DNA from: an uncultured Acetobacteraceae bacterium
GTDB taxonomy: Bacteria; Pseudomonadota; Alphaproteobacteria; Acetobacterales; Acetobacteraceae
Assembly (NCBI GenBank): GCA_903907955.1
Contig: CAIVPZ010000122.1
Coordinates: 1-64,000 of the forward strand
Direction: 5' to 3'
DNA length: 64,000 nucleotides
Part shown: positions 24,422 to 29,404 of the stretch, piece after piece
Layout: every line of letters starts with the position of its first letter
How positions within the stretch are numbered: position 1 is the stretch's first letter
Made by a program: the position numbers and the translations under genes
Notes under the pieces: model-generated
What the model was told of the DNA's origin: nothing
The model's input: only the letters and a program-made list of their open reading frames with translations
The model's database searches: none

Positions 24422-25765
24422 TCATGCCCGCCGCCACGTGGTGCCGGCCGGGCCATCCTCGAGCACGATGCCTTCCTGTTCCAGCGCCTGCCGGACGGCG
24501 TCGGCATGGACAAAATCGCGGGCGCGGCGGGCGGCCTGGCGCTCGGCGATGCGCGCCTCGATGGCGGCGGCGTCGGGCCCGCCGCGGAACCAGGCGGACG
24601 GGTCCTGCTGGAGAATACCCAGCATCCCGCCGCCGGCCCGCAGCGCCGCGCTGGCCGGCGCGTCGCCGGCCAGCGCGGCATCGGCCAGTTCGTGCAGCCG
24701 GGCGATGGCGAGCGGCGTGTTGAGGTCGTCACACAGCGCCTCAAGCACGGATTCGGGCACCGTATCCGCCGGCGGCGCCGGCCTGCGCTCCAGCGCGCGG
24801 TAGAAGCGATCAAGCTCGCGGCGCGCCTCGGCAAAGGCGAAATCGGAAAAATCCAGGCTGGCGCGGTAATGGGTGCGCAGCAGCAGCAGTCGCGCCGCCT
24901 CGGCCGGACCGCGCGCCAGCACATCGCGCACGGTGAGGAAATTGCCGAGGCTCTTCGACATCTTCTCGCCGTTCACCAGCAGCATGCCGTTATGCACCCA
25001 GACGCGCGCGAAACCGCTGCCCGGGAAGGCGCAGACGGACTGGGCCAGCTCGTTCTCGTGGTGCGGGAAGATCAGGTCGGCGCCGCCGCCATGGATGTCG
25101 AAGCTCTCGCCAAGGTAACGCCAGGACATCGCGCTGCACTCGATATGCCAGCCCGGCCGGCCGCGGCCCCAGGGGCTGTCCCAGCCCGGCAGATCGTCCG
25201 AAGACGGCTTCCACAGCACGAAATCGCCGGCATCGCGCTTGTACGGGGCGATTTCGATCCGCGCGCCGGCCAGCATCTCGTCCGGCGGGCGGCCGGACAA
25301 TGCGCCGTAGCGGGGGAAACTGCCGACCGCGAACAGCACGTGGCCCTCGGCGGCATAGGCGTGGCCGCTGGCGATCAGCCGCTCGATGATGGCGATCATG
25401 TCGGCGATGTGGGCGGTCGCACGCGGCTCCACGTCGGGCGGCAGGGCGCCGAGGGCGGCCATGTCGGCGTGGTAGTCGGCCAGCGTGCGGGCGGTGATGG
25501 CGCCGATCGGCTCGCCGCTCTGCTGCGCCCGGGCGTTGATCTTGTCGTCCACGTCGGTGACGTTGCGGACATAGGTGACGCGCGGATACAGCCGGCGCAG
25601 CAGCCGGGACAGCACGTCGAACACCACCACCGGGCGCGCGTTGCCGATATGCGCCAGGTCGTAGACCGTCGGGCCGCACACATACAGCCGCACGTGGGCG
25701 GGATCGAGCGGCTCGAATCGCTCCTTCTGGCGGGTGAGGCTGTTATGCAGTCTCAGGTCAGGCAT
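24422..25765 (-). CDS. cysS: Cysteinyl-tRNA synthetase
   Basis: A class I synthetase of 447 residues. The start [20 protein letters not shown] is preferred over an upstream open frame, because homologues begin here. Zinc ligand Cys30 in [10 protein letters not shown], the HIGH site as HIGN (39-42) and KMSKS (267-271) are intact. GWHIECSAM and [15 protein letters not shown] hold the remaining zinc ligands and amino-acid pocket. No Shine-Dalgarno is obvious. It is divergent from feoA, sharing the gap that holds the FNR- and Fur-type sites. Confidence 0.96.
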
Positions 25766-25869
25766 AGGGGGGTGGCGCTCCGACGGAGCCGGCACGCGGC
25801 CGGCAGAGGCGCTGTTTCTCCGCCAGCGCGGGCGGCAAATCAATGATCGGCGATCGGCGCCGGGCGATG

Positions 25870-25883
25870 TTGATCCAGGTCAA
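25870..25883 (+). promoter_or_regulatory. FNR/FixK-type operator candidate upstream of feoAB
   Basis: TTGATCCAGGTCAA matches the FNR consensus TTGAT-N4-ATCAA at 9 of 10 defined positions. Its centre is 40.5 bases before the centre of the Fur-like box. This is what an activator at -41.5 would show if transcription starts near 25918. feoAB activation by FNR under low oxygen is known in E. coli. Confidence 0.6.
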
Positions 25884-25908
25884 TGCGCAGCGGGCACGAA
25901 CCGTCCAA

Positions 25909-25925
25909 TTGCGACTGACTTGCAA
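25909..25925 (+). promoter_or_regulatory. Fur-type operator candidate upstream of feoA
   Basis: TTGCGACTGACTTGCAA is an imperfect 17-base palindrome (TTGC...GCAA ends, inner A/T positions symmetric), similar in style to alphaproteobacterial Fur boxes. It lies 23 bases before the feoA start and would cover the transcription start. It is called from pattern only. Confidence 0.45.
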
Positions 25926-25948
25926 ACGCTGTTCTGGAGAGCCAAGCC

Positions 25949-26344
25949 ATGAGCGCCATCACCCTGCCTGTTCCGTCCGCCCGGCCGCGCAGTACCGGTG
26001 TCGCTTGCAATTGCGAGCCGCTCGCATTAGACCCGGTTTCACACCCGGGAGAGTCCGTGTCCGCATCCCTCGCCGCCGCCAGCCGGCTCGGCACCGCCCC
26101 GCTCGGCTTCCGCGGCCGCATCCGCGCGGTTGACGCCACCGGCTGCGGACGTTCGCTGCCGCCCGCCGAACTGGAGCGCCGGCTGCTGGAAATGGGCTTC
26201 GTCGAGGGCGCGATGGTCGAAATCCGCAATCAGGGCCTGTTCGGCCGCGACCCGATCGCCATCCGGGTGGACCACGCCACCGTGGCCCTGCGCCGCGCCG
26301 AGGCCAACGCCATCCACGTCGACGCCGTGGACGGCGCGCGGTGA
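25949..26344 (+). CDS. feoA: Ferrous iron transport protein A
   Basis: A small SH3-like cytosolic partner of FeoB. The FeoA domain covers about residues 50-128 (LGFRGRIRAVDATGC, then LERRLLEMGFVEGAMVEIRNQG and DPIAIRVDHATVALRRAEANAI). The first 50 residues are an extra Ser/Ala-rich tail containing Cys20 and Cys22, unusual against the normal 75-85-residue FeoA. A shorter start inside is possible but not obvious. The stop overlaps the feoB GTG start (GTGA). Confidence 0.9.
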   Translation: MSAITLPVPSARPRSTGVACNCEPLALDPVSHPGESVSASLAAASRLGTAPLGFRGRIRAVDATGCGRSLPPAELERRLLEMGFVEGAMVEIRNQGLFGRDPIAIRVDHATVALRRAEANAIHVDAVDGAR

Positions 26345-28272
26345 ACGAACTCACCGCACCGGAGCTTGCCCGAATCCCCGCCCCGCCGCCGCCCCTCCCC
26401 CTCGCCGCCCCGCTGCTGCATGTCGCGCTGGTCGGCAACCCGAACTGCGGCAAGACCGCCCTGTTCAACGCCCTGACCGGCAGCCGCCAGAAGGTCGCCA
26501 ACTACCCCGGCGTCACGGTGGAACGGAAGGAAGGCAGCTTCGTCACCCCCGCCGGCCGCCCGGTGAAGCTGCTCGACCTGCCCGGCACCTATTCGCTGCG
26601 CGCCCGCAGCCCGGACGAGGAAGTCACCCGCGAAATCGTGCTCGGCCACCTGCCCGGCGAGAAGCGGCCGGAGCTGCTGCTCTGCGTGGCGGATGCCACC
26701 AACCTGCGCCTCGCGCTGCGCCTGGTGCTGGAACTGCGCCATGTCGGCCGGCCGATGCTGCTGGCGCTGAACATGTTCGACATCGCCCGCCACCGCGGCT
26801 TCGGCATCGACACCGACCGCCTCGCCGCCGAACTCGGCGTGCCGGTGGTGCCCTCGGTCGCGGTGCGCCGCGGCGGCACCCAGGCGCTGCTGGAGCAGCT
26901 GGACACGCTGGCCGACTCCGCCCCCGCCACCACCCCCGACGACTGGGCGCCGAGCGGGCGGGCCGGCACCCGCGCGCTGCAGCGCGAGGCCGACCGCATC
27001 ATCGCCGCCTGCGTCACCCAGCCCGCCAAGCCCGACACCGTCACCAGCCGGCTCGATTCGGTGCTGCTGCACCCGGTGCTGGGGCTGGCGATCCTGCTCG
27101 CCGTGCTGTTCCTGATGTTCCAGGCAGTGTTCTCCTGGGCACAGCCGCCGATGGGCGCGATCAAGGCCGGGTTCGACTGGCTCGGCACGATGGCCGGCAC
27201 GCTGCTGCCGGACGGGCTGCTGCGCAGCTTCGTGCGCGACGGACTGATCGGCGGCGTCGGCGCCGTGCTGGTGTTCCTGCCGCAGATCCTGGTGCTGTTC
27301 CTGTTCATCCTGGTGCTGGAGGATTTCGGCTACATGGCGCGGGCGGCGTTCCTGATGGACCGCATCATGGGCGGCGCCGGGCTGCACGGGCGCGCCTTCA
27401 TTCCGCTGCTGTCGAGCTTCGCCTGCGCCATCCCCGGCATCATGGCCACCCGCGTCATCGACAGCCGGCGCGACCGGCTGGCCACCATCATGGTGGCGCC
27501 GCTGATGACCTGCTCGGCGCGCATTCCGGTCTACACCCTGGTCATCGCCGCCTTCATCCCCGACCGCACCGTGTGGGGCGTGCTGTCGCTGCAGGGGCTG
27601 GTGATGTTCGCGCTGTATGCGGTGGGCATCGGCAGCGCGCTCGGGGTGTCATTCATCTTCAAGCGGCTGGTCTGGCGCAACACCCCCGCCGAGCCGTTCA
27701 TGCTGGAACTGCCCGACTACAAGCGGCCCAGCCCGCGCAGCATCTTCTTCGGCCTGACCCAGCGCGCCCGCATCTTCCTGCGCCGCGCCGGCACCACCAT
27801 CCTGGCGATGATGGTGATCATCTGGTTCCTCGCCTCGGTGCCGCGCCCGCCGGCGGACGCCGACCAGGCCGCCATCAACTACAGCTTCGCCGCCAGCATC
27901 GGCCACTTCATGGAGCCGGTGCTGGCGCCGGTCGGCTTCAACTGGCAGATCAACGTGGCGCTGCTGCCCGGCATGGCGGCACGCGAGGTGGCGGTGGCCT
28001 CGCTGGGCACGGTGTATTCCATCGCCGCCGAGGACGACCTGGGCGCCAACAGGCTGGGCCGCACCCTGGCGGGCAAATGGAGCCTGGCCACCGCGCTGGC
28101 GCTGCTGGCGTGGTACGTGTTCGCGCCGCAATGCGCATCCACCCTCGCTACCGTGCGGCGGGAGACCGGGTCCTGGGCGTGGATGGGGCTGCTGTTCGGC
28201 TATATGCTGGCGCTGGCTTATGCCGCCGCGTTTGTCACTTACCAGACGGCGGTGGCGTTGGGGGCGGGGTAG
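26341..28272 (+). CDS. feoB: Ferrous iron transporter FeoB
   Basis: An inner-membrane Fe(II) permease with a cytosolic GTPase. The 643 residues begin with a GTG codon coupled to feoA. G1 is GNPNCGKT (32-39), the switch is YPGVTVERKEG, G3 is DLPG (79-82) and G4 is NMFD. Two Gate segments in the membrane part contain conserved Cys (FACAIPGIMATR and LMTCSARIPVY). The protein is shorter than E. coli FeoB (773) and lacks the long C-terminal cysteine tail. No feoC follows. A GC double-hairpin repeat begins just after the stop. Confidence 0.95.
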   Translation: MNELTAPELARIPAPPPPLPLAAPLLHVALVGNPNCGKTALFNALTGSRQKVANYPGVTVERKEGSFVTPAGRPVKLLDLPGTYSLRARSPDEEVTREIVLGHLPGEKRPELLLCVADATNLRLALRLVLELRHVGRPMLLALNMFDIARHRGFGIDTDRLAAELGVPVVPSVAVRRGGTQALLEQLDTLADSAPATTPDDWAPSGRAGTRALQREADRIIAACVTQPAKPDTVTSRLDSVLLHPVLGLAILLAVLFLMFQAVFSWAQPPMGAIKAGFDWLGTMAGTLLPDGLLRSFVRDGLIGGVGAVLVFLPQILVLFLFILVLEDFGYMARAAFLMDRIMGGAGLHGRAFIPLLSSFACAIPGIMATRVIDSRRDRLATIMVAPLMTCSARIPVYTLVIAAFIPDRTVWGVLSLQGLVMFALYAVGIGSALGVSFIFKRLVWRNTPAEPFMLELPDYKRPSPRSIFFGLTQRARIFLRRAGTTILAMMVIIWFLASVPRPPADADQAAINYSFAASIGHFMEPVLAPVGFNWQINVALLPGMAAREVAVASLGTVYSIAAEDDLGANRLGRTLAGKWSLATALALLAWYVFAPQCASTLATVRRETGSWAWMGLLFGYMLALAYAAAFVTYQTAVALGAG

Positions 28273-28275
28273 GGA

Positions 28276-28335
28276 AGGCCAGGGCGCTGCCCTGGACCCG
28301 CAAGGGGGCAGTGGCCCCCTTGACCCCATTCCCTG
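28276..28335 (+). repeat. GC-rich double-hairpin repeat, copy 3
   Basis: CCAGGGC/GCCCTGG with loop GCT (28279-28295), then CAAGGGGGC/GCCCCCTTG with loop AGTG (28301-28322), then ACCCCATTCCCTGG. It lies 4 bases past the feoB stop, in an otherwise empty 262-base gap before motA (convergent). Confidence 0.8.
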
Positions 28336-28534
28336 GGACAATGTTTCCGAGCCGCCGATCATAGGTGACGGTTCACCGGCCGATGGGCGCTTCTGACCCT
28401 AAGCGGTCGCAAACTGCACGTGATAAACCCATGCCCCGCGCCACCCGCCGCCCCGCGCCCATCAACCCCTTGATCCGCCGTGCACAATCCCCCCAAATCC
28501 CACCCCATCCCAGATTTCCAACACTCAGTGTCGG

Positions 28535-29404
28535 TCAACAGCCTATCTGCAGGCTCTGCACCGCCGTTTCCAGCTCGAAGAATGTCGGCATGTGCTGGTT
28601 CGGCGCCATCTTGCGGCCGGTCTCCACGCTGATCTGCGGCGCGTTGCCGTGCAGATGCGCCACCAGCACGGCACGGATCACTTCGAAATACTTGCTCTCC
28701 TCCTCCACCACCCCCTTCAGCCGGCTGGCAGAGGGACCGGCCAGGCCATAGGCCAGCAGCACCCCCAGAAACGTGCCGACCAGGGCGCCGCCGATCATCG
28801 CCCCCAGCACCGCCGGCGGCTCGTTGATGTGCGACATGGTCTTGATCACGCCCAGCACCGCCGCGACGATGCCCAGCGCCGGCAGCGCATCGGCGAGGGT
28901 TTGCAACGCGTGCGCCGGATGCAGTTCCTCGGCGAGCATCTTCTTCAACTCCCGCGCCATCACGTCCTCGATCTGGTGCGGATCGTCGGCATTCATGCCC
29001 ACCATGCGCAGATAGTCGCAGATCATCGCGCAGGCATGATGATTGGCCAGGATTTTCGGGAACTTCCTGAAGGCGGGACTGTCCGCCGGCTTCTCGATAT
29101 GCGGCTCCAGCGCCATCGATCCCTTGGTGCTGGCCAGGCGCGCGAAGAAGAACAACAGGCTCAGCAGATCGATGTAGTCGGCTTTCTTGTACGACGCGCC
29201 CTTGATGACCTTCCCAAGTCCGGCGAACGTGTGCTTCACGTCGTACAGGCTGTTGGCCATGACGAAGGAGCCGATCGCGGCGCCGCCGATGGTCAGCAAT
29301 TCGAACGGCAGCGCCTCCATCAGCGCCGGCATGCTGCCGCCCGAAATGGCGTAGGTGCCGAACACGCAGACGCACAGCAGGACCAGTCCGCCAATCGTCA
29401 GCAT
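28535..29404 (-). CDS. motA: Flagellar motor stator protein MotA
   Basis: A proton-channel stator subunit with four membrane helices. The 289 residues include LTIGGAAIGSFVMANS (helix 2) and GIVAAVLGVIKTMSHINEPPAVLG followed by a second pair of helices (about 175-235), where conserved Pro residues contact the rotor machinery. The large cytoplasmic loop (about 60-170) is present. The ribosome site GAGGGG overlaps the motB stop. It follows motB, the reverse of the usual motA-motB order. No other flagellar genes are in the window. Confidence 0.94.
   Translation of the reverse strand: MLTIGGLVLLCVCVFGTYAISGGSMPALMEALPFELLTIGGAAIGSFVMANSLYDVKHTFAGLGKVIKGASYKKADYIDLLSLLFFFARLASTKGSMALEPHIEKPADSPAFRKFPKILANHHACAMICDYLRMVGMNADDPHQIEDVMARELKKMLAEELHPAHALQTLADALPALGIVAAVLGVIKTMSHINEPPAVLGAMIGGALVGTFLGVLLAYGLAGPSASRLKGVVEEESKYFEVIRAVLVAHLHGNAPQISVETGRKMAPNQHMPTFFELETAVQSLQIGC

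Follow-up and report, generated by a model that had tools for sequence, protein, structure and literature searches.

Sequence evidence for a putative oxygen- and iron-controlled feoAB promoter in an Acetobacteraceae genome

In Escherichia coli, feoA is activated by FNR (in nitrate) and the FNR activation of the feoABC operon is repressed by Fur, according to the passages cited here (PMC3688515). The locus analyzed in this work resembles that system in that FNR and Fur would both act on the operon; the likeness was judged at the level of the regulators, and our locus differs by having a pair of Fur-like boxes at a distance of 102 bases, one of them overlapping the predicted FNR-dependent start. 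In a fellow alphaproteobacterium, Rhodobacter sphaeroides, an FNR-type box (TTGACgcggATCAA) lies before feoABC and is bound by FnrL in ChIP, as described in excerpts of two studies (PMC2908626, PMC4263372). An FNR-type box before feo is what both loci share, whereas those excerpts do not mention a Fur box and the present locus has both classes of sites.

Binding of Fur before feo genes has in turn been described in Magnetospirillum (passages of PMC4506495 and PMC3251581). The footprinted core of the M. gryphiswaldense feoAB1 operator matches the first of our Fur-type sites at 14 of 17 positions, and among solved structures MgFur comes nearest to the Fur protein of this genome; one main footprint is described there and the same passages mention no FNR box. 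Finally, for the feoABC operon of Yersinia pestis an upstream promoter P1 overlapping an FNR-like site and a downstream, Fur-regulated P2 have been proposed (part of PMC5519574). As far as that part goes, P1 was relatively independent of iron and the deletion of fnr had no effect, whereas the P1 considered here also has a strong Fur-like box.

The window, i.e., the whole stretch of 64,000 nucleotides that was analyzed, contains a putative promoter that belongs to this known type of joint FNR/Fur control of feo, in a layout with two Fur-like boxes that is uncommon among members of the family. Judging from sequence comparisons, it is likely that the stretch before feoA is an oxygen- and iron-controlled feoAB promoter, with predicted activation by FNR at an upstream promoter (P1) and predicted repression by Fur at two sites (site 1 and site 2). 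This would extend the joint control of ferrous uptake by oxygen and iron to Acetobacteraceae genomes; a limited literature search found no paper combining feoAB, FNR, Fur and Acetobacteraceae, which is not proof of novelty.

The feoAB locus and the start of feoA

The features discussed below are the following, with coordinates in the window (boxes are given without strand):

24422-25765, minus strand: cysS (cysteine--tRNA ligase), divergent neighbour; TIGR00435, 469.9 bits (cut-off 340)
25870-25883: FNR-type box TTGATCCAGGTCAA, exact pattern, one of 43 in the genome, kept in the relatives L049 and L050
25906-25911, plus strand: candidate P1 -10, CAATTG, 22 bases after the FNR box; weak, 1/6 to TATAAT
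25909-25925: Fur-type box, site 1, TTGCGACTGACTTGCAA, rank 1 by both matrices and by the footprinted MgFur operator
25936-26056, plus strand: leader, with a Shine-Dalgarno-like GGAG and an ATG at 25949 in frame with feoA in the window
26005-26010, plus strand: candidate P2 -35, TTGCAA, 4/6 to TTGACA
26011-26027: probable Fur-type box, site 2, TTGCGAGCCGCTCGCAT, rank 2 of 63984 with the other-genera matrix; absent from the preliminary description
26028-26033, plus strand: candidate P2 -10, TAGACC, weak (3/6), 17 bases after TTGCAA
26057-26344, plus strand: feoA, probable start GTG 26057, 95 amino acids; PF04023, E 7.1e-15
26341-28272, plus strand: feoB, overlapping feoA by 4 bases; TIGR00437, 477.5 bits (cut-off 315.65)

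FeoA is followed by FeoB, with PF04023 and TIGR00437 both above their cut-offs, as in a feoAB operon, and the cysS ATG is at 25763-25765 on the minus strand. The matches to PF04023, TIGR00437 and TIGR00435 confirm what the preliminary description had proposed, namely feoAB downstream and a divergent cysS sharing the gap. The nearest named FeoB matches are in two metagenome-assembled genomes, L049 (91%) and L050 (83%, best segments in both cases), and judging from these closest named matches the source genome belongs with Acetobacteraceae. The cysS-feoAB arrangement, the FNR box, site 1, the leader ATG and site 2 are all present in both of them.

In the three species the leader ATG lies 23 bases after site 1. 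The frame that it opens continues into feoA in the window and in L050 and closes after 21 codons in L049, while the place aligned with GTG 26057 is an ATG in both relatives. Given the closure in L049, the most likely start of FeoA is GTG 26057, and 25949-26056 is probably a leader reading frame rather than the true beginning of the gene; the likely feoA start is corrected in this way. The ATG at 25949 was rejected as the feoA start on account of the stop in the L049 frame and of the ATG or GTG at the 26057 place in all three species, which is a matter of judgement, the L050 frame being open. A gene caller would give a FeoA of 131 residues from ATG 25949, probably over-extended.

The FNR-type box and the regulators

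The FNR-type operator dyad TTGAY-N4-RTCAA is matched exactly at 25870-25883. With one mismatch allowed, the pattern gave two matches in the window (one place, both strands) against 1.64 expected, so that the window alone, being at chance level, cannot decide and the whole-genome count can: the exact pattern TTGAYNNNNRTCAA occurs at 43 sites in the genome, versus 5 for the reversed control pattern. Furthermore, a first-order Markov model of the 290-base gap was used to generate 5000 sequences: 4 had the full pattern, 1 reached the Fur score of site 1, and none combined the two. Neither the FNR-type box nor site 1 looks like chance.

The genes adjoining FNR-type sites point in the same direction. 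They include hemN, bchE, hcp, pntA, an acetoacetyl-CoA reductase, a hydrogenase-4-like membrane subunit and the gene of an FNR homologue itself; hcp, pntA and the other neighbours are usual FNR targets. The gene next to each site was picked by a third-codon-position heuristic, giving 62 candidates, ten of which were scanned with NCBIfam (two of the ten had no match at 1e-10). The cut-offs were passed by hemN, bchE and the acetoacetyl-CoA reductase, and missed by pntA (382.1 vs 383), hcp and the hydrogenase subunit because their sequences were cut short. Both hemN and bchE are named as FnrL targets in Rhodobacter in the passages cited above (PMC4263372).

As a side observation, an FNR-type site at position 1501 of locus L147 precedes bchE, and the genome with this locus probably makes bacteriochlorophyll.

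Regarding the proteins that could read these sites, three clear Crp/FNR homologues and four weak ones were found among the seven matches listed. Two of the clear homologues have a CxxCx7C motif near the N-terminus and an ETVSR helix; one of these cysteine-bearing proteins, searched against solved structures, matches FixK2 and FNR, and its gene adjoins FNR-type sites, hemN and hcp. The third (L130) lacks N-terminal cysteines; its recognition helix also carries E and R at the key positions. It is this diversity that makes room for a different reader of the box, such as the cysteine-less protein, in which case the signal would be something other than oxygen sensed through an iron-sulphur cluster. 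The context of the FixK2/FNR-like homologue argues against that view, which we regard as unlikely, and for a homologue with an N-terminal iron-sulphur cluster. As to Fur, the genome has a single Fur-family match. The solved structure closest to it is MgFur (4ray, E 3.1e-54), and in an ungapped alignment to 4ray this protein keeps K15, Y56 and R57, described in part of PMC4506495 as DNA contacts of the Magnetospirillum protein.

The Fur-type boxes and the geometry of P1 and P2

The two sites of the preliminary description were located exactly where it had placed them, at 25870-25883 and 25909-25925, with centres (25876.5 and 25917.0) 40.5 bases apart. Its two-site layout was nevertheless incomplete: both sites are present, and a second Fur-like box at 26011-26027, between them and feoA, had been missed. 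A Fur matrix was built from 23 sites upstream of feoA in other genera, chosen by eye and excluding the genus of the window. Over the 63,984 positions of the window, site 1 scored 20.8 (rank 1) and site 2 17.4 (rank 2), the next position scoring 11.3. Because the training sites were picked by eye, a comparison with the published operator was added: site 1 matches the footprinted Magnetospirillum feoAB1 operator at 14 of 17 positions and is the sole position of the 63984 to reach 14. Site 2 falls short in this respect (10 of 17, with 255 positions matching as well or better) and rests on the family matrix. Likewise, a second matrix, for which the published MgFur operator and five further sites were taken from outside the family, left site 1 at rank 1 and moved site 2 to rank 19. 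The 15-base core of site 2 is a perfect palindrome, inside the frame that an annotator would take as the start of feoA, and the corresponding two places are ranks 1 and 2 of their loci in L049 and L050. From these comparisons site 1 is firmly assigned as a Fur-type box, and site 2, resting on its counterparts in relatives, is a probable one.

Genome-wide counts of degenerate patterns do not point to a wide Fur regulon with this motif. One pattern gave 32 matches against 22 for its control, with no clear enrichment, and another gave 5+7 against 6+6 (12 vs 12, both strands), with no enrichment; the only places matching the second pattern without mismatch are sites 1 and 2, from which it was itself written. 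A model scan of the genome for Fur boxes found no match and missed even sites 1 and 2, being thus uninformative.

The geometry of P1 is less clear-cut. In the three species the centres of the FNR box and site 1 are 40.5, 40.5 and 39.5 bases apart, the gap being 25, 25 and 24 bases, and a good -10 is lacking at the matching place, so that the "ideal" spacing of the preliminary description was overstated. CAATTG is identical in all three, at 22, 22 and 21 bases from the FNR box (counted by hand), and TCCAAT, with 4/6 to TATAAT, lies 20 bases after the box, two closer than CAATTG. A scan of 25500-28600 for sigma-70 promoters found none. At the genome level, however, TAnnnT follows the FNR box by 22 bases at 6 of 86 oriented sites, as opposed to 0 to 3 at 22 other offsets, and since this is the spacing of class II promoters, the genome probably makes use of them. 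As to the earlier proposal of class II activation from about -41.5, the window itself has at that place CAATTG, which agrees with the consensus at 1/6; a class II geometry at feoA is plausible.

Downstream, the P2 candidate consists of TTGCAA and TAGACC on either side of site 2, and TTGCRR-17/18-TA is found upstream of feoA in 12 of 48 family loci. It could be argued that site 2 and P2 do all the iron control, site 1 being an AT-rich remnant and the FNR box distant or inactive on feoAB. This arrangement would agree with the usual state of the family (at least one Fur-like box in 35 of 48 loci, two in 1 of 48) and with the weak -10 of P1. Yet site 1 surpasses site 2 as a Fur match by every measure tried, and in the three-way alignment 15 of 21 columns are invariant in the P1 -10 plus site 1, versus 8 of 22 in the stretch between the FNR box and P1 and 26 of 94 in the leader that follows; we consider such a division of roles improbable. 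The same alignment has 12 of 14 invariant columns in the FNR box, 15 of 29 in the P2 region and 63 of 104 in the cysS-side leader. Sites 1 and 2 are separated by 102 bases in the window and L050, and by 118 in L049.

The conservation of the cysS-side leader raises the question of whether the FNR box acts on the divergent cysS and not on feoAB. The box is nearly palindromic and stands 104 bases from the cysS start, with a GATCAT hexamer (4/6) 21 bases from it on the cysS strand. Against this, the conserved cysS-side block lies 24, 15 and 20 bases from the box in the three species, as counted on the alignments, whereas the feoA-side distance hardly changes (25, 25 and 24), and Acidocella has an FNR box before feoA with a different sequence upstream. 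Control of cysS as the main role of the box was rejected on account of the variable distance, and we find it very hard to credit that cysS and not feoAB is its target.

The reading that we favour, joint control of feoAB through P1 and both Fur-type sites, would operate as follows. At low oxygen, 25870-25883 would be bound by an FNR homologue whose N-terminus holds an iron-sulphur cluster, and which would recruit RNA polymerase to P1, with a start near 25918. When iron is sufficient, Fe2+-bound Fur would occupy both Fur-type sites, site 1 covering the P1 start and site 2 the proximal promoter-like P2, and shut both promoters; indeed, since site 1 overlaps CAATTG and the predicted start, Fur placed there would block the polymerase. 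Induction at low oxygen and repression by iron, as anticipated in the preliminary description, are well supported by comparative evidence: the regulon context, the two relatives, the presence of both regulators and the match to a footprinted operator. A more elaborate variant, to which we give very little credence, is that transcripts from P1 made without oxygen would yield a FeoA of 131 residues (with a 36-residue N-terminal extension) or a leader frame tuning feoA translation, whereas P2 would yield only the 95-residue FeoA, the two Fur boxes gating these forms separately.

Distribution of the sites in the family

A sample of 200 family genomes provided 48 feoA loci (46 genomes with FeoA, plus that of the window), L049 and L050 being outside it. 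A Fur-like box scoring at least 14 within 250 bases is present at 35 of these loci and absent from 13, with the proviso that 12 of the 48 supplied Fur training sites and that L033, L040 and L044 are refetched places that did too; in the window, 2 of 255 such stretches have one, and those two contain sites 1 and 2. Two Fur-like boxes occur at a single locus of the 48, that of the window, which is also the only one with the full FNR pattern within 400 bases of feoA (a looser test adds L031). The conservation of both sites, by which the preliminary description proposed to judge its reading, thus holds in the two nearest genomes, but in the family sample the full FNR pattern marks only 1 of 48 feoA loci.

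In a wider set, 130 loci were examined, two of which have no FeoA match (L077, L082), and the Fur training sites were chosen from the upstream sequences of 41 of the remaining 128. The full FNR pattern is found in 5 of the 128 rows, which count loci, some places having been fetched twice (L161 is L049, L162 is L050, L031 is L054, among others): these are the window's locus and the L049 and L050 species twice each. Three more rows, from two Acidocella species, have a near-perfect FNR box, and eight other loci have single weaker matches. A genome of the same genus as the window (G076) has three feoA loci (L010, L038 and L042), with an FNR box at none of them. One of these loci, L038, carries a very good Fur-like box (24.6).

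One Fur-like box being the usual state of the family, the FNR box and its own Fur box, a module supported by three species, are best read as a probable addition in the window's genus. It suggests a route of construction in which an operon usually provided with one Fur-like box would have gained, in one genus, an FNR box together with a further Fur box. In the two Acidocella species the FNR-like box closely precedes their Fur-like box. The hexamers 22 bases past the FNR-like box are there TAAGTC (2/6 to TATAAT) and TGATAT (3/6), so that class II use appears no better shown in Acidocella than in the window.

Moreover, 397 family genomes were searched for the pair, defined as an FNR box with a Fur-like box 2-32 bases downstream. 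It occurs in 11 of them, once each, and the control gave 0 among the matches listed. Five of the pairs precede feoA: three come from the lineage of the window, and two have the same sequence as the Acidocella stretches upstream of feoA. As the pattern was fitted to the window and Acidocella examples, these five are not independent; the other six are. Of the latter, two occupy the interval between hemB and an Nramp transporter gene, and one each precedes a TonB receptor and an OprB porin. The pair is thereby associated with iron genes across the family, four of the pairs away from feoA adjoining metal or transport genes. The remaining two, one close to ccmH but on the opposite strand and the other upstream of a phage-type repressor, look like chance; their genes are unrelated to iron uptake.

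The hemB pairs belong to the Acidocella genus group (L202 and L203, position 1501), where the FNR-plus-Fur pair stands between hemB and the gene of an Nramp-type metal transporter, an arrangement that suggests joint control of haem synthesis or metal uptake by oxygen and iron.
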